Part shown: one piece after another, positions 16 through 63,178 of the stretch
Numbering within the stretch: the first letter of the stretch is position 1
Layout of the letters: each line of letters begins with the position of its first letter
NCBI RefSeq assembly: GCF_001078055.1
Contig: NZ_CP010777.1
Coordinates: 1,324,408 to 1,388,407 of the forward strand
Reading direction: 5' to 3'
DNA length: 64,000 bases
Origin: Rufibacter radiotolerans
GTDB lineage: Bacteria > Bacteroidota > Bacteroidia > Cytophagales > Hymenobacteraceae
Made by a program: the position numbers and the translations under genes
Notes under the pieces: model-generated
What the model was told of the DNA's origin: nothing
What the model saw: the letters and a program-made list of their open reading frames with translations, nothing else
Databases searched by the model: none

Positions 16-53
16 CGTTTTTAGCCTACTTTTTGAAAAGCAGCCCTAAAACG
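16..53. repeat. 38-nt palindrome, copy 1
   Basis: This copy has a 17-nt left arm, 4-nt loop and 17-nt right arm. The left arm is diverged, but the right arm keeps the CTAAAACG end. It overlaps the terminator at 36-62, so its right half doubles as the terminator stem and loop. Confidence 0.7.
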
Positions 54-752: not shown

Positions 753-790
753 CGTTTCGGGCCTGTTTTCTGAAAAACAGGCCCGAAACG
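753..790. repeat. 38-nt palindrome, copy 2 (perfect arms)
   Basis: The arms are perfectly complementary around the loop CTGA, and pairing extends three more C:G pairs on each side (750-793, 20-bp arms). The arm carries TTTC/GAAA instead of the usual TTTT/AAAA, a compensated change. It lies 22 nt after the DUF3109 stop codon. Confidence 0.9.
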
Positions 791-831: not shown

Positions 832-891
832 AAACAGCCTATAAACAGAAAAAGCAGCCAATAGGCTGCTTTTTCTGTTTATAGGCTGTTT
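832..891. terminator. Bidirectional hairpin terminator, 28-bp perfect arms
   Basis: Positions 832-859 and 864-891 are exact inverted repeats around the 4-nt loop AATA. The stem contains AAAAA and TTTTT runs. It separates the convergent DUF3109 and accC genes and ends 3 nt before the accC stop, so it probably terminates both. A 28-bp perfect stem is much longer than a usual intrinsic terminator. Confidence 0.85.
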
Positions 892-894
892 TTG

Positions 895-2238
895 CTAAAA
901 CTGCGTGAAATCGTAATTGTCAAGGTAACTGGTAGTGAAGTTACCGCTGTTAAAGTTCTCGTCTTCCATCATGGCCATGTGGAACGGAATGGTCGTTTTT
1001 ACGCCCTCAATCACGAACTCACTCAGCGCGCGCTTCATCTTTACAATAGCTTCTTCCCGGGTCTGCGCACTCACAATCAGCTTGGCAATCATAGAGTCAT
1101 AGTTGGCCGGAATGGTGTACCCCGCATACACGTGCGTGTCTACGCGGACCCCGTGGCCGCCTGGTATGTGCAATACCGTGATCTTGCCTGGGCTAGGGCG
1201 GAAGTTGGCTTTCGGGTCCTCGGCGTTGATGCGGCACTCAATGGCGTGCATCTGTGGGTAATAGTTCTTACCGGAGATAGGAATTCCGGCTGCCACCTTG
1301 ATCTGCTCCTTGATCAGGTCATAGTTCACTACTTCCTCGGTGATGGGGTGCTCCACCTGAATACGGGTGTTCATCTCCATGAAGTAGAAATCTTTGTGCT
1401 TGTCTACCAGGAACTCAATGGTACCCACGCCTTCATATTTGATGGCGGCGGCCCCGGCAATAGCGGCCTGGCCCATGCGCTCGCGCAGGTCGTCATCAAT
1501 GAAAGGGGAGGGGGTTTCTTCAATCAGTTTCTGGTGACGGCGCTGGATGCTGCAGTCACGCTCAGAAAGGTGACAAACCTTGCCGTACTGGTCGCCTACG
1601 ATCTGGATCTCAATGTGGCGGGGCTCCTCCACAAATTTCTCCAGGTACATGCCGTCGTTACCAAAAGCGGCTTTCGCTTCCTGGCGGGCATCGGCCCAGG
1701 CCTTGTCAAACTCATCTGCTGATTTGATGATGCGCATGCCGCGGCCACCACCACCGGCGGTGGCTTTGATGATCACCGGATACTTGATTTTGGCAGCCAG
1801 TTTCTTGCCTTGCTCCGCAGATTCCAGCAGACCCTCAGAACCCGGAATAGTAGGCACACCGGCTTTCTTCATGTACTCCTTGGCCGAAGACTTGTCACCC
1901 ATGGAGTTGATCATCTCTGGGCTGGCGCCAATGAACTTGATGCCGTTTTCAGCGCAGATTCTGGAAAAATCAGCGTTTTCAGAAAGGAAGCCGTAGCCTG
2001 GGTGAATGGCGTCTGCGTTGGTAATCTCTGCAGCGGCAATCAGGTTAGGGATGTTCAGATACGACTGAGAGCTGGGTGCAGGTCCAATACATACCGCCTC
2101 ATCCGCGAAGCGTACGTGCAGGCTTTCTTTGTCGGCGGTAGAATACACGGCTACCGTCTTTATTCCCATTTCTTTGCACGTCCGGATTACCCTTAGCGCT
2201 ATTTCGCCACGGTTGGCAATTAGTATTTTTTTGAACAT
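895..2238 (-). CDS. accC: Acetyl-CoA carboxylase, biotin carboxylase subunit
   Basis: AccC carboxylates the biotin on BCCP using ATP and bicarbonate, the first half-reaction of malonyl-CoA synthesis for fatty acids. The 447-residue protein opens with the typical [16 protein letters not shown] biotin-carboxylase N-domain. An ATP-grasp domain follows with the glycine-rich AGGGGRGMR loop, then the [11 protein letters not shown] motif that carries the catalytic Arg and metal-binding Glu. The length is normal for AccC. It is the last gene of the efp-accB-accC group. The 160-nt gap to accB is unusually long for an operon and carries inverted short-word repeats, so expression may be partly separate from accB. 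Confidence 0.97.
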
Positions 2239-5849: not shown

Positions 5850-6398
5850 TTATTTTAACTTTTTAAGGGCGGCAAATCGGGGGTCCACCGGACCGTCCTC
5901 ATCATCGTCCTCTTCTTCATCGGCTGCGCCGGTAGAGTAAATCAAAAGGCCTTCTGCCTCTGGGTTGTCCTCTAGTTGCTGGTCTTCCTCCACAAACCGG
6001 GGGTGCAGCTTTTTCATGGGCAGTGCCAGGCCTATGTAATCATACAGGTGCTGGGCAATGTTGATGTACTGCGTCTCCGGTACTATCTGCAGCACGTTCA
6101 CGTCCAGTTCCTGGTCTTCAGGGCCGTAGCGCACGAGCAGCGTCTGTTCCACTTCCAGGGGGTGCTCAAATTCCTCTAAGCTCCGGTCACAGGTCAGACG
6201 GACCGTTCCTGTGATATGGAAGTAAAGCTGCAAAAGAAGCTCAGACTTGTGCAGCTCTACCACCGCTTTCAAGTTGCCGCCCAGGACCAGGTCCTGCTCA
6301 AACAACTCAAAGAAGCGGTCATCCAACTCAAACTCATAGCTGTGGCTCTTGTTGCCAAGCTTCACGAGGTTGATATCGTATTTCTTAATCTCCTTCAC
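5850..6398 (-). CDS. DUF177 (YceD-like) protein
   Basis: DUF177/YceD proteins are encoded next to rpmF in most bacteria and have been linked to 23S rRNA maturation. This one has 182 residues from a GTG start (VKEIKKYDINLVKL). I chose this start over an upstream in-frame ATG because AGAGG precedes it and a TAATTTTG promoter box lies 24 nt upstream. The cysteine in LTCDRSLE is kept as in the family. The C-terminus has a very acidic stretch (DEEEDDDEDG) followed by DPRFAALKKLK. It is probably the first gene of the rpmF-plsX-fabH operon. Confidence 0.85.
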   Translation of the reverse strand: MKEIKKYDINLVKLGNKSHSYEFELDDRFFELFEQDLVLGGNLKAVVELHKSELLLQLYFHITGTVRLTCDRSLEEFEHPLEVEQTLLVRYGPEDQELDVNVLQIVPETQYINIAQHLYDYIGLALPMKKLHPRFVEEDQQLEDNPEAEGLLIYSTGAADEEEDDDEDGPVDPRFAALKKLK

Positions 6399-6429: not shown

Positions 6430-6590
6430 GCAAGAATATTCGGTAAATAAAATACAAATGCCCTTTTTTGCGCCCGCCGGTGAATACCTGTTTTGGGTAT
6501 GTTTTGGCAGAAACAGTGCAAAAACAGTAGTGGTTCATTTACAGCAGAATACCTTATATAAATGAATTCTCTACTTTAAAATACAAAATG

Positions 6591-6628
6591 CGTTTTAGGC
6601 CCCTTTTTCTGAAAACAAGCCTAAAACG
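6591..6628. repeat. 38-nt palindrome, copy 3
   Basis: The loop is TCTG and the outer pairing extends into AAATG/CATTT flanks (about 6587-6632). It lies between the pdxA stop and the promoter region of the DUF177 operon. Confidence 0.88.
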
Positions 6629-9162: not shown

Positions 9163-9945
9163 GTGAAGCCCGTCCAGCCCAAGAAACACCTGGGTCAGCA
9201 TTTCCTGACTGACCTCAATATTGCCCAGCAGATTGTGGATGCTCTGCGCCTGCCCAACGGCGTGCAGGACGTGCTGGAGGTGGGCCCCGGCATGGGCGTG
9301 CTTACCCAGTATCTGGTGCAGCACCCTGAGTACAAGACCACTATCGTGGACATTGACCGCGAGTCCATTGCCTGGCTCAACGAGCATTTTCCGCAACTGG
9401 AAGGCCGCGTGCTTTTAGCCGATTTTCTGAAAACCGACCTTAAAACGCTTTTTGCCGGTCCGTTTGCCGTGATAGGGAATTTTCCGTACAATATATCCAG
9501 CCAGATTTTGTTCAAGGTACTGGACCACCGCGACCAGGTGCCCGAGGTGGTGGGCATGCTTCAGAAAGAAGTTGCAGAACGCATTGCCGCCCCCCACGGC
9601 TCTAAAACCTACGGCATCATGAGCGTGCTCCTGCAGGCGTTTTACACCATAGAATACCTGTTCACGGTGCATGAGCACGTGTTCAACCCACCGCCTAAGG
9701 TAAAGTCTGCGGTTATCAGGCTCACCCGAAATGAAGTAACAACCTTACCTTGTGATGAGAAGCTGTTTTTTAGAGTAGTGAAGACTAGTTTTGCCACCCG
9801 CCGTAAAACCCTCCGGAACTGCCTCAAGCCGTTTAACCTACCGGTAGAGGTAACCCAGGACGTATTGTTTGACAAGCGGGCCGAGCAGCTTTCAGTGAAT
9901 GATTTTATTAACCTGACCCTTCTGATCCAGCAGCATGCAGTCTGA
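9163..9945 (+). CDS. rsmA: 16S rRNA dimethyladenosine transferase
   Basis: RsmA (KsgA) dimethylates the two adjacent adenosines of the 3'-terminal hairpin of 16S rRNA during 30S assembly. The protein has 260 residues from a GTG start (MKPVQPKKHLGQHFL, a typical RsmA N-terminus). Motif I VLEVGPGMGVLTQYL binds SAM and GNFPYNISSQ is the NxPY-type catalytic motif. Residues LLADFLKTDLKTLF are encoded by DNA that resembles the 38-nt palindrome (9411-9447), but this segment also fits the family, so the match may be chance. The stop overlaps the start of mgtE by 11 nt, indicating translational coupling. Confidence 0.96.
   Translation: MKPVQPKKHLGQHFLTDLNIAQQIVDALRLPNGVQDVLEVGPGMGVLTQYLVQHPEYKTTIVDIDRESIAWLNEHFPQLEGRVLLADFLKTDLKTLFAGPFAVIGNFPYNISSQILFKVLDHRDQVPEVVGMLQKEVAERIAAPHGSKTYGIMSVLLQAFYTIEYLFTVHEHVFNPPPKVKSAVIRLTRNEVTTLPCDEKLFFRVVKTSFATRRKTLRNCLKPFNLPVEVTQDVLFDKRAEQLSVNDFINLTLLIQQHAV
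9411..9447. repeat. Palindrome look-alike inside rsmA
   Basis: Arms resembling the 38-nt family (TTTTAGCC and GACCTTAAAACG) flank a 3-nt loop. The length is 37 nt instead of 38. The encoded residues fit the RsmA family, so descent from the repeat is uncertain. Confidence 0.3.
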
Positions 9946-12294: not shown

Positions 12295-12332
12295 TATTTA
12301 GGGGCTGTTTTTAAGAAAACGCCTCTAAAACA
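12295..12332. repeat. 38-nt palindrome, copy 4
   Basis: This copy begins 2 nt after the dehydrogenase stop codon. Its left end is degraded (TATTTAG) but the 17-4-17 spacing is kept. It abuts the terminator that follows. Confidence 0.75.
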
Positions 12333-13821: not shown

Positions 13822-13859
13822 CGTTTTGAGGCTATTTTCCGGAAAACAGGCCTAAAACG
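13822..13859. repeat. 38-nt palindrome, copy 5
   Basis: The right arm AAAACAGGCCTAAAACG is the family consensus; the left arm has a few mismatches. The loop is CCGG. It is fused directly to the terminator of the ABC-F gene. Confidence 0.9.
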
Positions 13860-15912: not shown

Positions 15913-15950
15913 CGTTTTGGGGCCGTTTTTAGAAAAACAGGCCGAAAACG
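15913..15950. repeat. 38-nt palindrome, copy 6
   Basis: The arms are close to consensus and the loop is TAGA. It sits directly beside the terminator at 15954-15996. Confidence 0.9.
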
Positions 15951-16654: not shown

Positions 16655-16692
16655 CGTTTTCAGCCTATTTTCTGAAAAACACGTCTAAAACG
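16655..16692. repeat. 38-nt palindrome, copy 7
   Basis: The loop is CTGA and the right arm reads ACACGTCTAAAACG. It lies 17 nt upstream of the 2H phosphoesterase start codon, in the likely 5' leader or promoter region. Confidence 0.8.
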
Positions 16693-18843: not shown

Positions 18844-18881
18844 CGTTTCGGGGCTGTTTTTAGGAAAACCGCCCCGAAACG
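18844..18881. repeat. 38-nt palindrome, copy 8
   Basis: The outer pairs extend to AAG/CTT (18841-18884). Compensated TTTC/GAAA changes resemble copies 2 and 23. It lies between the DUF4136 lipoprotein gene and the decarboxylase start. Confidence 0.88.
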
Positions 18882-21687: not shown

Positions 21688-21725
21688 CGTTTTAAACCTG
21701 TTTTTGGAAAAACGGCCTTGAAACG
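21688..21725. repeat. 38-nt palindrome, copy 9
   Basis: The spacing is 17-4-17 with loop TGGA. Read in the frame continuous with hslV it gives FRFKAVFPKTGLKR, the same peptide pattern seen in the menF copy, but here it lies outside the real gene. Confidence 0.85.
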
Positions 21726-23940: not shown

Positions 23941-23978
23941 TGTTTTGGGCCTGTTTTGCAGAAAACGGCCCCAAAACG
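23941..23978. repeat. 38-nt palindrome, copy 10
   Basis: Near-consensus arms surround the loop GCAG. It lies 14 nt after the nagB terminator stem. Confidence 0.9.
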
Positions 23979-24325: not shown

Positions 24326-24363
24326 CTTTTTGGGGGTGTTTTCTGCAAAACAGCTCCAAAACG
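24326..24363. repeat. 38-nt palindrome, copy 11
   Basis: The loop is CTGC and the left arm is degraded at the end (CTTTTT). It is joined directly to the terminator at 24365-24396. Confidence 0.82.
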
Positions 24364-26237: not shown

Positions 26238-26275
26238 CGTTTTTACCCTTTTTTCAAAAAAACGGCGTAAAAACT
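26238..26275. repeat. 38-nt palindrome, copy 12 (degenerate)
   Basis: The outer CGTTTTT and GTAAAAAC ends and the 17-4-17 length are kept, but the inner arm has lost GGCC on the left. It lies between pdhC and the histidine phosphatase stop. Confidence 0.6.
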
Positions 26276-27462: not shown

Positions 27463-28683
27463 ATGTCCCAGGAGAGTCCTTCGTTTTTACCCCCGGTTTC
27501 GTTAGTTACCTCGGCAGAGGAAACCGCCCATACCCTATTTACTGCCGCCCTTGCCGCCGAACTGCCTGTAGCTCTCTGGCGGCTACCCTTTACCCAGGAG
27601 GTGCAGGTACTGGTGGCCAGCCGGGTGGAACCGGAGTTACCGCCCCTGGAAGGCCCCCAAAAAGGCTTCGCGTTTTGCCCTTTCAGCATCTCAGCCACTT
27701 CTCCCATTAATTTCCTGCCCGCAGACCTTTATTTTTCCGGCAAAGCCGATGCGGAACTTGAATTTGGGAATAACCTCTTGCCTGCCCGTTTTAAGCCCGT
27801 TTTTCAGAAAACAGGCTCAAAACAGAAACAGGAGCAAGCCTGGCCCAGCCACCCAGATGGCCTGCCTAAAGCCATTACCCGCGATGCCTTTGAGCAGACG
27901 GTGGCCACCGCGGTAAAGGCCATGCAGGCCGGCTGTCTGGAAAAGGTGGTGCTGTCCCGCACCAAAACGCTGTCCTTGTTTGAAGGGTTTGACCTGTTGT
28001 CTGCCTTTACCCAACTCACCCAGCTGTACCCCAACGCTTTTATCTCTTTGGTAGCCATTCCGGGCGTGGGTACCTGGCTGGGCGCTTCGCCGGAGGTGCT
28101 GGTACAGATAGACCGGCATCATGTCTTTAAAACGGTGGCGCTGGCAGGAACCCAACCCCTCACCGATGGCCTGACGCCCGCCGATGCCATCTGGCGGCAA
28201 AAGGAGATTGAAGAGCAGGCCCTTGTGCAGCGCTACATCATTAGCTGTTTCAAACATTTGCGCCTGCGCGATTACGTGGAGATGGGGCCGCGCACCATGG
28301 CGGCGGGAAACCTGCTACACCTGCGCACCGATTACAGCGCCGCCATGGAGGAAGTGGGTTTCCCTGAACTAGGTACCCAAATGCTGGAACTTTTGCACCC
28401 CACCTCGGCGGTTGGTGGCATGCCCAAAGCCTCTGCTCTGCATATGATCCAGGAACTGGAACTGCATGACCGCCGCTACTACAGTGGTTACCTGGGACCG
28501 GTCCAACTGGGCCAGGAAACCAACCTTTTCGTGAACCTTCGGTGCGTGGAGCTGGGTCAGGACACGGTGACCGCCTACGCGGGGGCCGGCATGACCCCAG
28601 ATTCTAACCCGGCCAAGGAGTGGCAGGAAACCGAACTCAAAATGCAAACCGTGCTCCGTCTTTTTCAAGCTTCAGAATCATGA
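27463..28683 (+). CDS. menF: Isochorismate synthase with a translated palindrome copy
   Basis: MenF converts chorismate to isochorismate, the committed step to menaquinone. The 406-residue protein carries the chorismate-binding fold in its C-terminal two thirds: GTWLGASPEVLV, FKTVALAGTQP, LLHPTSAVGGMPK and AYAGAGMTPDSNPAKEW. Residues 109-121 (RFKPVFQKTGSKQ) are encoded exactly by a full 38-nt palindrome copy. They lie in the variable N-terminal region just before the conserved domain, where an insert could be tolerated. The stop overlaps the menD start (ATGA), indicating coupling. Chorismate enzymes of this fold can be confused with salicylate synthase; menD next door settles the role. Confidence 0.93.
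   Translation: MSQESPSFLPPVSLVTSAEETAHTLFTAALAAELPVALWRLPFTQEVQVLVASRVEPELPPLEGPQKGFAFCPFSISATSPINFLPADLYFSGKADAELEFGNNLLPARFKPVFQKTGSKQKQEQAWPSHPDGLPKAITRDAFEQTVATAVKAMQAGCLEKVVLSRTKTLSLFEGFDLLSAFTQLTQLYPNAFISLVAIPGVGTWLGASPEVLVQIDRHHVFKTVALAGTQPLTDGLTPADAIWRQKEIEEQALVQRYIISCFKHLRLRDYVEMGPRTMAAGNLLHLRTDYSAAMEEVGFPELGTQMLELLHPTSAVGGMPKASALHMIQELELHDRRYYSGYLGPVQLGQETNLFVNLRCVELGQDTVTAYAGAGMTPDSNPAKEWQETELKMQTVLRLFQASES
27787..27824. repeat. 38-nt palindrome, copy 13, inside menF
   Basis: A full 17-4-17 copy (loop TCAG, right arm AAAACAGGCTCAAAACA) is read in frame as menF residues 109-121. A 38-nt unit is not a multiple of three, so a simple insertion would need one extra base or a small rearrangement to keep the frame. 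Confidence 0.9.
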
Positions 28684-30392
28684 TTTTACAGTCTGTCATA
28701 GATATTGCCGAAATATGTGCCCGCAAGGGAGTGCAGGATGTGGTGCTGTCCCCGGGATCCAGGTGTGCGCCGCTCACGCTGGCCTTTGCCCGCCACCCAC
28801 AGTTGCGCGTGCGCACGGTACCAGATGAGCGCAGCGCGGCCTTTATTGGCTTGGGCATCGCGCAGCAGACTGGTAGGCCGGTGGTGCTGGTGTGTACCTC
28901 GGGAACGGCCGCCTATAACTATGCTCCTGCCATTGCCGAGGCTTTTTACCAGAACATTCCGCTGTTGGTACTCACCGCCGACCGCCCACCAGAATGGATT
29001 GACCAACTGGACGGGCAGACCATTCGGCAAACCCATATCTATGGCGGCCACGTAAAGCGCAGCCTTGATTTCCCGGTGGATACTGCCCATGCAGATGCCA
29101 AGTGGTTCGCCTCCCGGTTGATCAATGAAGCCCTGAATGAGGCCACGGCCTTCCCGGAGGGCCCGGTACACGTGAACGTGCCGCTGCGGGAGCCTTTTTA
29201 CCCAGAGCCGGGGGAGGAGTTTGCCTATAAAGCCGACGTCAAGATTATTGAGGAACTGGCCTCCGGATTTGGGTTGCCAAATCAACAATGGGAGACACTA
29301 CGTCAGGAGCTTTCCGCCTTTAAGCGGGTGTTGGTGGTGGCGGGCCAGGGGAGAAAAGACCAGGCATTGCATGAGGAGATTGTGGCGTTCTGCCGGGCCA
29401 CCGGGGCCGTTTTGGTGACAGACACTATCAGTAACCAACAGAAGGCCGGCGACAGCATAAACTTCCATGACGTTTTTCTGGGAGCCAAACACCTGCACGG
29501 GGAGGAAGCCCTGCGGCCAGATCTGTTGATCACCTTCCATAAATCCTTGATCTCCAAAAACCTGAAACTGTTCCTGCGCAAACAGCCAGGTATGCGGCAC
29601 TGGCACGTGCAGCCCGCCGGGCAGGTGGCCGACACCTTTCAGGCCCTTACCCGCATTGTCAGAACCACGCCGCAGGCCTTTTTCCAGGAGATAGGCAAAG
29701 GGGAAAAACCCTTAATGGTGACGCCCGCCTTTACCCAGGCCTGGCATGAGCTGGAACACCAGGGCAAGTCAGTTTTGGCCCGTTTTCAGGAAAACAGCCC
29801 TTTTTCGGAATTTATGGCCTGTTACCAGACCCTTAGAATGCTGCCGGCCAACAGCGTGCTGCATCTGGCCAATAGCATGAGCGTGCGCTATGCCAACCTT
29901 ATCGGAGTAGCCGAGGTGGAGGGCCTGGAAGTGTTTGCCAACCGGGGCACCAGCGGGATAGACGGCAGCACCAGCACGGCCGTAGGGGCGGCGCTCAGCA
30001 CCGACAAACTGGTTACGCTCATTACCGGCGACATGGCCTTTCTTTATGACCGCAACGCGCTCTGGCACAATTACCTGCCCCAGAACCTGCGCATTTTAGT
30101 GCTCAATAACCACGGTGGCGGCATCTTCAGGATGATAGAGGGGCCAAGGTCACAGCCGGAACTCAGACCATTCTTTGAAACAGAACAAATGCAGACGGCG
30201 CAGGCCACTGCCCAGGAAATGGGATTTAACTATGTTAGGGTTGCAGATGCAGCTTCTTTAGAAACCCTGTTTCCTGCCTTTTTCAACCCGGCTACGGGGC
30301 CTCAGTTATTGGAGGTTGAGACGGTCAGTGCCGAGAATTTTGCCGCATTTGAGTCCTTTAGAGACCAGGTGCGTAGCAACATTTGTTTATAG
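28680..30392 (+). CDS. menD: SEPHCHC synthase (menaquinone biosynthesis)
   Basis: MenD is a thiamine-diphosphate enzyme that joins 2-oxoglutarate-derived succinic semialdehyde to isochorismate. The start is the ATG overlapping the menF stop (MILQSVIDIAEICA), giving 570 residues. The ThDP-activating Glu is in VPDERSAAF. The ThDP/Mg2+ motif region is ITGDMAFLYDRNALWHN with NNHGGGIFRMIEG after it. SPGSRCAPL is the MenD N-terminal signature. Around residues 365-376 the DNA resembles a degraded palindrome copy (LARFQENSPFSE). It is followed by the first DoxX gene after 107 nt. Confidence 0.95.
   Translation: MILQSVIDIAEICARKGVQDVVLSPGSRCAPLTLAFARHPQLRVRTVPDERSAAFIGLGIAQQTGRPVVLVCTSGTAAYNYAPAIAEAFYQNIPLLVLTADRPPEWIDQLDGQTIRQTHIYGGHVKRSLDFPVDTAHADAKWFASRLINEALNEATAFPEGPVHVNVPLREPFYPEPGEEFAYKADVKIIEELASGFGLPNQQWETLRQELSAFKRVLVVAGQGRKDQALHEEIVAFCRATGAVLVTDTISNQQKAGDSINFHDVFLGAKHLHGEEALRPDLLITFHKSLISKNLKLFLRKQPGMRHWHVQPAGQVADTFQALTRIVRTTPQAFFQEIGKGEKPLMVTPAFTQAWHELEHQGKSVLARFQENSPFSEFMACYQTLRMLPANSVLHLANSMSVRYANLIGVAEVEGLEVFANRGTSGIDGSTSTAVGAALSTDKLVTLITGDMAFLYDRNALWHNYLPQNLRILVLNNHGGGIFRMIEGPRSQPELRPFFETEQMQTAQATAQEMGFNYVRVADAASLETLFPAFFNPATGPQLLEVETVSAENFAAFESFRDQVRSNICL
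29771..29808. repeat. Degraded palindrome-like segment inside menD
   Basis: The left half GTTTTGGCCCGTTTT and loop CAGG match the family, and AAAACAGCCC matches the start of the right arm. The right end is then lost (TTTTTCGG). The left arm is one base short. It is probably an old copy, but chance cannot be excluded. Confidence 0.45.
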
Positions 30393-34102: not shown

Positions 34103-34140
34103 CGTTTTGGGCCTGTTTTAGCGAAAACAGACCCAAAACG
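34103..34140. repeat. 38-nt palindrome, copy 14
   Basis: The first base follows the menE stop codon directly. The arms have one mismatch and the loop is AGCG. Confidence 0.92.
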
Positions 34141-41803: not shown

Positions 41804-42340
41804 CTAAAACTTGTTTTTCCACATCATAGACTCCACGGGGTACACCGTGCGGTCATTGTATTTGGCATTGCTTTTTTTGTTGTAATAATTCTCAATGCCG
41901 CCGTTCACCACAAAGTAAATCAACTGCCCAATAGGCATGTTATGGTAGACCCGTACCTTCTGGCTGACCGAGATTTCCAAGGTCCAGTGGTTACAGAAGC
42001 CTACGTCTCCTTTGCCGGCGGTGGCGTGTATGTCAATACCCAGTCGGCCTACGCTAGATTTTCCTTCCAGGAACGGCACGTGGGCGTGGGTCTCGGTATA
42101 TTCCTCGGTGACGCCCAAATACAGTTTGCCCGGCTCCAGCACATACCCTTCCTCAGGAATCTCAAAAACGGTGATTTTGTTATGCTGGCGGGCGTCCAGC
42201 ACCTCGTCATTGTAGGTGGCCAGGTACTTGCCTAAATGAACATCATATGAGTTGGTGCCAAGGCAAGTGCGGTCATAGGGCTCTATTAAGATGGTGCGTT
42301 TCTCTATCTCTTCCAGAATCTGACGGTCGGTAAGGATCAT
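41804..42340 (-). CDS. dcd: dCTP deaminase
   Basis: Dcd deaminates dCTP to dUTP in the pyrimidine deoxynucleotide pathway. The 178-residue protein (start at 42340, MILTDRQILEEI) has the family core FLEGKSSVGRLGIDIHATAG and TLEISVSQKVRVYHNMPIGQ. The trimer-forming jelly-roll pattern is intact. An in-frame extension to 42463 would add 41 residues that include translated palindrome DNA and is not supported. It is monocistronic. Whether it also makes dUMP (bifunctional type) cannot be read with confidence. Confidence 0.93.
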   Translation of the reverse strand: MILTDRQILEEIEKRTILIEPYDRTCLGTNSYDVHLGKYLATYNDEVLDARQHNKITVFEIPEEGYVLEPGKLYLGVTEEYTETHAHVPFLEGKSSVGRLGIDIHATAGKGDVGFCNHWTLEISVSQKVRVYHNMPIGQLIYFVVNGGIENYYNKKSNAKYNDRTVYPVESMMWKNKF

Positions 42341-42418: not shown

Positions 42419-42456
42419 GTTTTGAGCCTGTTTTTGAGAAAACAGGCTCAAAACGA
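42419..42456. repeat. 38-nt palindrome, copy 16 (perfect arms)
   Basis: Seventeen perfectly paired positions on each side surround the loop TGAG. GAG/CTC replaces GGG/CCC in the arm, a compensated change. It lies 78 nt upstream of the dcd start. Confidence 0.93.
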
Positions 42457-43681: not shown

Positions 43682-43719
43682 TGTTTTAAGCCCCTTTTAC
43701 GGAAAAAAGCCCCAAAACA
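43682..43719. repeat. 38-nt palindrome, copy 17
   Basis: The outer pairs T/A are compensated, the loop is ACGG, and inner positions have lost the GTTTT start. It lies just upstream of the thioesterase start. Confidence 0.85.
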
Positions 43720-50302: not shown

Positions 50303-50340
50303 TGTTTTTTGCGTGTTTTGAGAAAAATAAGCTTAAAACA
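50303..50340. repeat. 38-nt palindrome, copy 18
   Basis: The inner arms are diverged (TTGCGT, AAGCTT) but the GTTTT blocks, AAAACA end and 17-4-17 spacing are kept; loop GAGA. It ends 25 nt upstream of the ffs -7 box. Confidence 0.7.
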
Positions 50341-50342
50341 GC

Positions 50343-50372
50343 TTGCCCTGAAAGAAAGGCTTCGTATCTTTG
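50343..50372 (+). promoter_or_regulatory. Complete -33/-7 promoter for the SRP RNA
   Basis: TTG (50343-50345), 19 nt, then TATCTTTG (50365-50372). The RNA begins 5 nt later, which calibrates the -7-to-start distance for other promoters in the window. Confidence 0.75.
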
Positions 50373-50376
50373 CAAC

Positions 50377-50467
50377 GGCAAATCGGTACGGCCAGCTCCT
50401 GCTGAACTCCCCCAGGCCCGGAAGGGAGCAAGGGTAGGTGGTTGAGCGGCGCGATACTCGATTTGCC
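50377..50467 (+). ncRNA. ffs: Signal recognition particle RNA (4.5S type)
   Basis: The sequence folds as the small bacterial SRP RNA. The ends GGCAAATCG (50377-50385) and CGATTTGCC (50459-50467) pair. Inside is the conserved domain IV with CAGGCCCGGAAGGGAGCA, whose GGAA tetraloop and flanking internal loop bind Ffh. The length is about 91 nt and a T-run terminator follows. It has its own promoter. The protein partner Ffh is encoded at 63314 onward. Confidence 0.96.
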
Positions 50468-50528
50468 ACTTTTTTTTTGCCCCTACCTCAACGGATTTCC
50501 TTCCGAACCCTATTTAAACCCACTTTTC

Positions 50529-50566
50529 TGTTTTAGAGCCGTTTTCCTGAAAACAGGCCCAAAACG
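50529..50566. repeat. 38-nt palindrome, copy 19
   Basis: Near-consensus right arm AAAACAGGCCCAAAACG; loop CCTG. It lies 62 nt after ffs. Confidence 0.9.
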
Positions 50567-53433: not shown

Positions 53434-53471
53434 TGTTTTAAGCCCGTTTTCCGCAAATCAGACCTAAAACA
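53434..53471. repeat. 38-nt palindrome, copy 20
   Basis: It starts 3 nt after the glycosyltransferase stop. The loop is CCGC; the right arm has AAATCAGACC. It runs into the terminator of the convergent lipoprotein gene. Confidence 0.85.
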
Positions 53472-60266: not shown

Positions 60267-60304
60267 CGTTTTGGGGCTGTTTTCCAGAAATCAGGTCTAA
60301 AACA
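60267..60304. repeat. 38-nt palindrome, copy 22
   Basis: Loop CCAG; right arm AAATCAGGTCTAAAACA. It lies 13 nt upstream of the flippase start, between two genes of the same strand. Confidence 0.85.
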
Positions 60305-61733: not shown

Positions 61734-61771
61734 CGTTTCGGGGCTGTTTTTTGAAAAACAGCTCCGAAACG
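61734..61771. repeat. 38-nt palindrome, copy 23
   Basis: TTTC/GAAA compensated change as in copies 2 and 8; one mismatch in the arms; loop TTGA. It lies between the GT4 gene and the deacetylase gene of the same strand. Confidence 0.9.
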
Positions 61772-61780
61772 CCTTTGGTT

Positions 61781-63100
61781 TTATGACAGAACCAGCTTGG
61801 AAAGTTGCTCTGTAAGCGATCTACGCGAGTATTGGGTGTAGTTGATGATAGGCAGGTCCAGGTTAGGATTTATGGTCCAGGTTTTACTCATCTGCATCAA
61901 ATAATCCAAGATCAACTCGTAACCAGAATAATGGAAAACCCGTCCGGCGCCGCACTCATCCAGGATTTTGTCCACGTCGCCGTGGATGGGCCCAATGCAG
62001 ATAATGGGCTTGTTGGCCGCCAGGTACTCAAATAGTTTTCCGGTCAGAATCCCGAAGTTATTGGCCACATCCGGTATCGCCATGAACAGCACCGTGCTGG
62101 ACATGAGGTACTTAATGGATTCATCATGGGGCACGTAGTCAATGTATTCAGTGACCAGCGGCAAACCTGCTTCCTCAATCTGTTTTCTAATTTCCGCGGA
62201 CACCTTGCCCACAAACCGCAACTTGTAGCGCATGAGGGGGTTGCGGGTCATGGTTGCGCAGAGTGCCTGGAAAAACGCCTCCACGTTATAGGCCTCGGTA
62301 AGCGTGCCGGTGTACGTGATCACAAACTCCTCAGAAGACGGCTGCGACGGGTGCACGAAATCGGCCTCGTCATACCCGTTGGGGATCACGTGTATTTTAT
62401 CTGGCTTCAGGTCCGGGGACTTTTGCAGGAACAGGCGCTTCATGTCATCGCTCACCACCAGCACGGCATCTGCATTTTCCAGAACCTCGCGCTCGTATTT
62501 GGCATCCAGCTTTTGGGCCAGGGCGGTGTGGTTCAGGTCTTGGTAATAATAGATGTCAGTCCAGGGGTCGCGCATGTCGGCAATCCATTTCACACCCAGT
62601 TGCTTTTTGAGCTTCAGCCCGATGAGCTGCGTGGAGTGGGGCGGGCTGGAGGTAATAATCGCTTTTACGGGTTGTTGCTGAATGGCTTTCTTGGCAGCGG
62701 CCAACGCAAACCGGTTCCAGCCTATCCGCGGGTCTGGGATGAAAAGATTGCCCCTCAGGAATTTGAACAGCTTCTGTTTCCAGCTCTCCTGGCCGGTGTT
62801 AGCAAAGCCACCGAACGGAATATCCTGCTTACCGGTCAGTTTCTTGTAAAACTCAAAGGGCTCACGGGTGGAGGTCCTGATGACGTTCACCTCCTTAGGA
62901 ACCTCAGCTAGCAGGGAGGTATCAAGGATAGGGTAGGAGGCCTGCTTATCATCTACGGTAAGCACGGTGGGCTGCACCCCAAACTCGGGCAGGTGCTTCA
63001 CAAACTTGAGGCAGCGCTGTACGCCGGCCCCACCCGAAGGCGGCCAGTAATAAGTGATAAGCAGAGCGTGTTGGGGCGTAGGTACTTCAGGAGCTTTCAA
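61781..63100 (-). CDS. Glycosyltransferase family 4-like protein (start uncertain)
   Basis: The GT-B enzyme has a clear N-terminal acceptor motif ITYYWPPSGGAGVQRCLKF and a C-terminal donor region (FVITYTGTLTEAYNVEAFFQ; FEYLAANKPIICIG). No ATG lies near the expected start. I chose the TTG at 63100 (MKAPEVPTPQHALLITYYWP), giving 439 residues. An ATG at 63292 would add 64 residues, including translated palindrome copy 24 (FRPVFLKTPQKQF), and would sit in the ffh promoter region; this is less likely. It is first in the minus-strand glycan run. Confidence 0.8.
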   Translation of the reverse strand: MKAPEVPTPQHALLITYYWPPSGGAGVQRCLKFVKHLPEFGVQPTVLTVDDKQASYPILDTSLLAEVPKEVNVIRTSTREPFEFYKKLTGKQDIPFGGFANTGQESWKQKLFKFLRGNLFIPDPRIGWNRFALAAAKKAIQQQPVKAIITSSPPHSTQLIGLKLKKQLGVKWIADMRDPWTDIYYYQDLNHTALAQKLDAKYEREVLENADAVLVVSDDMKRLFLQKSPDLKPDKIHVIPNGYDEADFVHPSQPSSEEFVITYTGTLTEAYNVEAFFQALCATMTRNPLMRYKLRFVGKVSAEIRKQIEEAGLPLVTEYIDYVPHDESIKYLMSSTVLFMAIPDVANNFGILTGKLFEYLAANKPIICIGPIHGDVDKILDECGAGRVFHYSGYELILDYLMQMSKTWTINPNLDLPIINYTQYSRRSLTEQLSKLVLS

Positions 63101-63140: not shown

Positions 63141-63178
63141 TGTTTTTGAGGTGTTTTCAGGAAAACAGGCCTGAAACA
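63141..63178. repeat. 38-nt palindrome, copy 24
   Basis: Outer T/A pairs are compensated, with loop CAGG. It lies in the divergent gap between the GT4 gene and ffh. Confidence 0.9.

Follow-up and report, generated by a model that had tools for sequence, protein, structure and literature searches.

On balance, we lean towards reading the palindromic segment translated within the menF gene of the Rufibacter genome studied here as belonging to an ancient family of DNA sequences with dyad symmetry that is passed on vertically, evolves in place, and is likely bound by a protein, and not as an insertion of the Rickettsia type. The window, i.e., the whole 64-kb stretch of DNA that was analysed, corresponds to positions 1324408-1388407 of a genome (G000) consisting of a single contig of 4.82 Mb; the coordinates of the features are collected in Table 1.

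The Palindromic Segment of menF

The menF gene is the sole close match to itself in G000, where two distant matches share 25-28% identity with it. Its product matches the Pfam family Chorismate_bind at residues 140-393, and its best NCBIfam match is isochor_syn, with 218 bits, slightly below the cut-off of 224.75; the closest named relatives retrieved by the MenF search belong to Rufibacter species and to Sabulibacter ruber. A preliminary description of this DNA had placed a full palindrome copy at 27787-27824, encoding residues 109-121 (RFKPVFQKTGSKQ) of an otherwise normal protein. The copy is indeed there, at 27788-27823 (the wider interval adds one unpaired base per side), and the gene of 406 aa that carries it is intact, with the Chorismate_bind match starting from residue 140. 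In G000, the segment matches 28 out of 28 core positions and 20 out of 20 fixed bases of the family, and forms 14 out of 16 arm pairs. The AlphaFold2 model of MenF has a mean pLDDT of 87, and the predicted helix encoded by the palindrome (residues 110-117) falls in a stretch with a pLDDT of about 75. Judging from the intact reading frame, a member of a dispersed palindrome family would be read in frame within MenF, as had been proposed; the accompanying suggestions of an insertion and of a likeness to the Rickettsia elements were not supported, for the reasons given below.

The same description had pointed to a peptide pattern shared with copies 9 (21689) and 24 (63142). Both copies lie upstream of gene starts and are noncoding. 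For the former, which lies upstream of a proteasome-family (HslV-like) gene, 14 relatives align from residue 66 at the earliest and the Pfam match begins at residue 101; for the latter, the copy would correspond to residues 39-51, ahead of both the Pfam match, which begins at residue 94, and the called start at 63001 (about residue 98). Moreover, the three coding copies that were followed, i.e., those of menF, of a gene for a ComEA-like helix-hairpin-helix protein, and of a 519-aa ORF, are alike in behaviour and occupy three different reading frames, so that the shared peptide is meaningless by itself. On the sequence evidence, it arises where one and the same DNA motif is translated in a given frame, and a repeat at the peptide level was rejected because of the three frames. 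Two further candidates for coding members were discarded as chance resemblances, one at 9411 in the gene for an RrnaAD protein (9/16 pairs) and one at 29771 in the gene next to menF, read as menD (8/16 pairs).

The Palindrome Family in the G000 Genome

The consensus of the family in G000 is GTTTT-N6-GTTTT-N4-AAAAC-N6-AAAAC, that is, a dyad-symmetric sequence of 36 bp with 16-bp arms and a 4-nt centre, in which roughly one helical turn separates the two T tracts of each arm. A search of the 4.82-Mb genome gave 589 instances of the exact core, against 0 of the reversed control; thus, the menF copy is not due to chance. When a copy was defined by at least 17 of the 20 fixed bases and at least 10 of the 16 pairs, 258 copies were counted in 864 kb of G000, corresponding by extrapolation to about 1,400 per genome, and they were evenly distributed (21-39 copies in each 100 kb of the first 800 kb). 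According to gene calls obtained with a simple codon-usage caller written for this analysis, seven of these 258 copies overlap called genes (about 97% being outside), though 77% of the DNA is coding. The seven are the menF copy, two at gene stops, those of the ComEA-like gene and of the 519-aa ORF, and two at G000:C1:309586 and 551801, with 11 and 10 pairs, respectively. Among the 109 exact copies of the 864 kb, that of menF is the only one overlapping a called gene.

As far as gaps of more than 60 nt are concerned, the family occupies 51 out of 80 convergent, 141 out of 325 tandem, and 26 out of 86 divergent ones; between tandem genes, the median copy lies 47.5 nt past the upstream stop and 122.5 nt ahead of the next start. 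An extragenic location, mainly in tandem or convergent gaps, is a feature by which REPs are recognised, and it was found in the Rufibacter family. Both the short distance from the upstream stop and the occupancy of the three types of gaps, together with covariation at three inner pairs (5, 6, and 8), are also what would be expected of RNA hairpins at the 3' ends of transcripts, serving as terminators or stabilisers, the menF copy being incidental. We regard this explanation as very unlikely, since on the sense strand A-C mismatches outnumber G-U ones (157 vs. 112, p=0.007), the T run of a terminator (five or more T among the 8 bases past the arm) is present in 7% of 160 tandem copies, and Rfam at its gathering threshold gave no match at the palindrome sites, matching only SRP RNA. 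The covariation at pairs 5, 6, and 8 does leave room for hairpins to form. At pairs 7, 9, and 10, no covariation was detected among the G000 copies, the half-sites varying independently there. The independence of the half-sites, the spacing of the T tracts, and the lack of both a G-U excess (GT 112, AC 157) and a downstream T run favour recognition of the sites as duplex DNA, as far as motif statistics can tell.

A Probably Ancestral Segment Rather Than an Insertion

The preliminary description had proposed that a clean gap at residues 109-121 in the MenF of relatives would prove insertion. Such a gap is absent: the segment is ungapped in all 16 genomes of the genus set (the Rufibacter group, including G000), in which it matches 19 to 28 of the 28 core positions in the best register. 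Measured from the LPAD motif up to a Trp that hardly varies, the linker is 43 aa long in 13 and 45 aa long in 4 of the 17 genus MenF rows (two of which are the window sequence); in the 75 outgroup MenF sequences, it ranges from 39 to 62 aa, with a mode of 43 and a length of 42 or 43 in 44 of them. On the basis of both the ungapped alignment across the 16 genus genomes and the similar linker length in the 75 outgroup sequences, insertion into menF was rejected, although a compensating deletion of the same size, on the long stem of the genus, may have masked one. If nothing was inserted, the puzzle previously seen in a length of 38, not a multiple of three, vanishes. In each of three outgroup genomes (G069, G065, and G073), the menF match crosses one stop codon.

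The second coding copy, that of the ComEA-like gene, likewise shows no extra length, the linker being of 36-42 residues in the genus and of 36-53 residues in the 22 outgroup sequences that were measurable (24 outgroup genomes were searched, two of which had broken copies). In-frame stops were observed in this gene in the outgroup genomes G052 and G088.

Concerning the palindrome itself, when counted in the codon register, the menF segment forms 15 pairs in G007, 14 in G000 and G010, 13 in G015, and 12 in G014, G012, and G008, that is, at least 12 out of 16 in seven of the 16 genus genomes; in the remaining nine, it is weaker (6-11 pairs). The best pair counts within the MenF linker overlap between the genus (9-15) and the outgroup (7-12). 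The palindromy of menF increases with the palindrome density of the genome, as a weak trend (Spearman 0.56, p=0.025). Because G000 branches off first within the genus, we infer that the menF palindrome was well formed in the ancestor of the genus and then decayed in one clade; this position of G000 comes from a 36-gene tree, with the root split placed by MenF only (support 0.906).

Distribution of the Family and Shared Positions

The exact core was retrieved from all 16 genus genomes, with 3 to 642 copies each. Of 291 genomes sampled from the order, 287 lie outside the genus, and the core is absent from every one of these. This pattern corresponds to the way in which G000 spells the site and gives too low a count for other dialects (4 copies in G014); for this reason, palindromes were also counted with only the outer GTTT/AAAC fixed. 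With at least 12 pairs, the 16 genus genomes gave 164 of them over 946 kb (8 in the reversed control), against 0 over 354 kb of outgroup loci and 0 over a further 91 kb. The counts were restricted to motif-anchored palindromes, since sequence reversal preserves motif-free ones and thereby voids that control. Within the DNA searched, the family was found only in the Rufibacter-group genus.

The sites tend to be shared by position. For the 11 gaps with a G000 palindrome, a mean of 47% of the comparable relatives have one in the same gap, vs. 10% for the 19 gaps without. Of 15 relatives, 12 have a gap of 144 bp upstream of menF (site 26239); the best 36-mer lies at offset 99-100 in 14 of the 15, and nine pass the palindrome threshold. 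Moreover, 80 comparisons, which are not independent of one another, could be anchored in seven close genome pairs examined in both directions, and a further 48 sites were not anchorable. Out of these 80, 74 align through the palindrome, where the identity is 78% (flanks: 65%); of the other six, four are partial and two are gaps forming part of larger indels. No clean insertion or empty site was found among the 80.

The density of the palindromes ranges from 3 to 7 per 100 kb of syntenic stretch in G001, G015, G002, and G005 up to 28 to 34 per 100 kb in G000, G014, G010, and G008, and the sparse genomes give the impression of a system decaying in a number of lineages. In G014, the first 80 kb of the plasmid-sized second contig (155 kb) harbor three palindromes, none of which is in the G014 dialect, vs. 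45 in 159 kb of the chromosome; this paucity suggests a chromosomal family.

These data bear on the possibility that the family represents atypical REPs, i.e., small hairpin elements mobilised by a Y1 (RAYT) transposase, with the menF copy being an old insertion trimmed to length. Size, abundance, post-gene position, and the presence of copies in genes are REP-like (as REPs are portrayed in PMC3733652), and Y1_Tnp matches occur in 15 of the 16 genus genomes. Four such matches are present in G000:C1 (1170853, 3033190, 3845507, and 3917586), two of which have copies within 400 bp, at 176 and 355 bp from the match at 3033190 and at 236 bp from that at 3917586; the Y1 neighbourhoods in G000 show no consistent pattern. 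However, G012 harbors 100 exact copies without any Y1 match, and the GTAG and CGTC tags are not enriched, being found within 10 nt of the ends of 12 and 11 of the 258 copies, respectively, vs. 44 and 22 when stretches at a distance of 200 nt served as controls. The lack of clean insertions in the anchored comparisons, the similar length of the outgroup linkers at the two coding sites of menF and the ComEA-like gene, and the tendency of orthologous sites toward the spelling of their own lineage also speak against mobility of this kind, and we deem this origin quite unlikely.

Lineage-Specific Spelling and Codon Choice

Among the genomes with enough copies, the spelling of the palindrome differs, as exemplified by the inner CATTT arm of G014 and the outer GTTTAG arm of G003; an abundant motif with lineage dialects, as is sought in uptake sequences, was thus present in the Rufibacter family. 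The dialects were tested in 11 of the 16 genomes, each with at least six sampled palindromes, using matrices that exclude the tested site. The fit of the menF segment to the dialect of its own genome was above all 20,000 permutations (11 genomes), with p=0.0001 in the seven genomes having at least 12 copies. The own dialect ranked first in G000, G011, G014, G010, and G008 and second in G012; the rank was low in G003 (4), G009 (6), G007 (6), G013 (7), and G004 (8). The other two coding copies also beat the permuted dialects, in the 11 and in the seven genomes, respectively, with p=0.0025 and 0.0058 for the ComEA-like copy, and with 0 out of 20,000 permutations and 0.00045 for that of the 519-aa ORF. 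Five out of seven intergenic sites fit their own dialect (p<0.01), the other two being not significant (p=0.083 and 0.21).

Since these permutations ignore the relatedness among the genomes, the comparison between the sisters G014 and G010 matters. At index 24, which was picked after the G014 dialect was known, G014 has G at all nine sites compared, three of which are coding; in G010, the base is C at every one of the five comparable sites, including these three coding ones. In the other genomes, G fills 16 of the 115 cells, chiefly those of the 519-aa ORF and of four intergenic sites. At index 11, the C of the dialect is present at nine out of nine sites in G014, at one out of five in G010, and in 25 of 115 cells of all the other genomes pooled. 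In these comparisons, as well as for the intergenic sites and for the orthologues of the other coding copies, the best-scoring 36-mer of each interval was used, which favours palindromes but not any given dialect, and the ComEA-like row covers 14 of the 16 genomes, G006 and G001 being dropped because their best 36-mer was in another register.

Furthermore, the codons of menF favour the DNA motif beyond the needs of the peptide in most genomes. When the 13 residues were back-translated by synonymous draws at the codon usage of the genome, none of 200,000 draws reached the motif score of G000. The test gave values of <0.001 in 10 of the 16 genomes and of 0.004-0.05 in G006, G001, G002, and G011 (the last being marginal), and it was not significant in G004 and G015; a pooled matrix was used for the scoring of G006, G005, G002, G015, and G001. 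The 549 control windows taken elsewhere in the G000 menF behaved as chance predicts, with 3.8% below 0.05 and 0.2% below 0.001.

In the orthologues of the other two coding copies, a motif-like 36-mer is found at the same place in all 16 genomes. The palindromy of these copies, taken as the best in the interval, is modest (9-13 pairs in the ComEA-like gene and 7-12 in the 519-aa ORF), and the copy of the 519-aa ORF sits in a linker that is otherwise poorly alignable.

Ordinary protein evolution, in which a linker helix would resemble the repeat by chance, could account for the ancestral length of the linker, for the predicted helix, and for the modest palindromy of most genus genomes. It is hardly credible in the face of the exact match in G000, the group-wise fit to the dialects, and the codon bias toward the motif.

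Comparison with Known Systems and Possible Explanation

REP families carry a GTAG or CGTC tag at one end, and those with GTAG are associated with a tyrosine transposase. REPs are described in PMC3733652 as short, high-copy palindromes found mainly after genes and sometimes within them, with stems of 5-13 and 8-9 bp according to a table therein. The Rufibacter family is similar to them in having short and abundant palindromes in a post-gene position with some in-gene cases; it differs in the lack of tag enrichment, in the symmetric 16-bp arms around a 4-nt centre, in the lack of a clear link to a transposase, and in the many fixed orthologous positions, the lineage dialects, and the parallel change in place. 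The palindromic elements of Rickettsia (RPEs) keep the reading frames and occupy the same place in orthologues; they are 100-150 bp long and are inserted relative to the orthologues of other bacteria (PMC3767692). The Rufibacter coding copies are also in frame and at the same place in orthologues, whereas the site is of 36 bp and no length change against the outgroups is observed in menF and in the ComEA-like gene.

A third comparison is with DNA uptake sequences. The site might label a cell's own DNA for natural transformation; recombination after biased uptake could then spread the current spelling at homologous positions. At 36 bp, the Rufibacter site is long for a DNA uptake sequence. The uptake sequences of the Neisseriaceae are abundant, are spelled differently from lineage to lineage, and include inverted pairs between genes as well as copies in coding sequence, and the same source offers counterparts for the dialects, the high copy number, the indel-free change in place, the permissive linkers, and the dyad or inverted arrangements (PMC3630211). 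The palindrome-poor second contig of G014 would also agree with such a drive. On the other hand, intragenic uptake sequences are common according to that source (PMC3630211), whereas the Rufibacter site is a single 36-bp dyad lying outside genes in about 97% of cases. Taking these points together, and by analogy, we hold an uptake-like signal to be unlikely; a literature search on uptake sequences and natural transformation in Bacteroidetes retrieved no such signal by title. The Rufibacter family combines features of REPs, RPEs, and uptake sequences without having all the testable defining features of any of them. Within the scope of a literature search on Rufibacter palindromes, no paper on such repeats was found by title.

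Returning to the protein-bound family that we favour, the site would be recognised as double-stranded DNA by a putative protein, probably a dimer. The preference of this candidate protein would drift, and the sites, including the coding ones, would be pulled in place toward the current spelling; most of them lie just after genes, and the menF copy would persist where the linker helix tolerates the residues encoded by the motif. The common shift of dialect could reflect either selection for a drifting binding protein or an uptake-like drive. In its widest form, the proposal would be that, throughout the genus, over a thousand chromosomal dyad sites form a network that co-evolves with a candidate recognition protein, their spelling shifting in parallel and overriding the protein sequence in permissive linkers such as that of menF, so as to represent a novel, concerted, non-mobile, dialect-bearing system distinct from both uptake sequences and REPs; we advance it tentatively, and it must be considered somewhat doubtful.

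The contrast of bases between G014 and its sister G010 points to a DNA-level signal shaping a protein sequence, and the family provides a testable system for coordinated change among hundreds of dispersed sites. It also calls for caution, in that a repeat read within a gene is not necessarily inserted.

Sites of the Window

Table 1. Genes and palindromic sites considered in this work (window coordinates unless a contig is given).
Position	Strand	Feature	Arm pairs	Comparable relatives with a palindrome in the same gap
27463..28683	+	menF, isochorismate synthase, 406 aa, intact, containing a coding palindrome copy		
27788..27823		Palindromic site in menF, residues 109-121; predicted helix 110-117 before the chorismate-binding domain	14/16	
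17..52		Site at the left edge of the window	12/16	
754..789		Intergenic, convergent genes	16/16	7/9
877..912		Weaker, overlapping a gene end	11/16	
6490..6525		Weaker, same gap as 6592; a first-ATG ORF spans the site, the called gene ends at 6398	11/16	
6592..6627		Intergenic, offset variable among relatives		12/13
12296..12331		Intergenic, weak here	10/16	10/14
13823..13858		Intergenic		
15914..15949		Intergenic		
16656..16691		Intergenic, between divergent genes		
18845..18880		Intergenic	15/16	9/14
21689..21724		Copy 9 of the preliminary description, upstream of the HslV-like gene, noncoding		
23942..23977		Intergenic		
24327..24362		Within a small ORF without a match in the relatives' stretches and without a Pfam match; taken as intergenic		
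26239..26274		Intergenic, upstream of menF		
34104..34139		Intergenic, immediately past a stop codon		
40530..40565		Intergenic		
42419..42454		A first-ATG ORF spans the site, the called gene starts at 42340; taken as intergenic	16/16	
43683..43718		Intergenic		
50304..50339		Intergenic, left of the SRP RNA gene		
50530..50565		Intergenic, right of the SRP RNA gene		
53435..53470		Intergenic, 5 nt past a stop codon		
55783..55818		Intergenic		
57888		Candidate site, one homologue among the relatives' stretches	11/16	
60268..60303		Intergenic		
61735..61770		Intergenic		
63142..63177		Copy 24 of the preliminary description, upstream of a glycosyltransferase gene, noncoding		
G000:C1:545309-546262		Gene for a ComEA-like helix-hairpin-helix protein (name read from the sequence) with a coding copy		
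G000:C1:209628-211187		519-aa ORF with a coding copy		

The small SRP RNA gene of the window (50370-50471, Rfam RF04183) has a palindromic site on either side.
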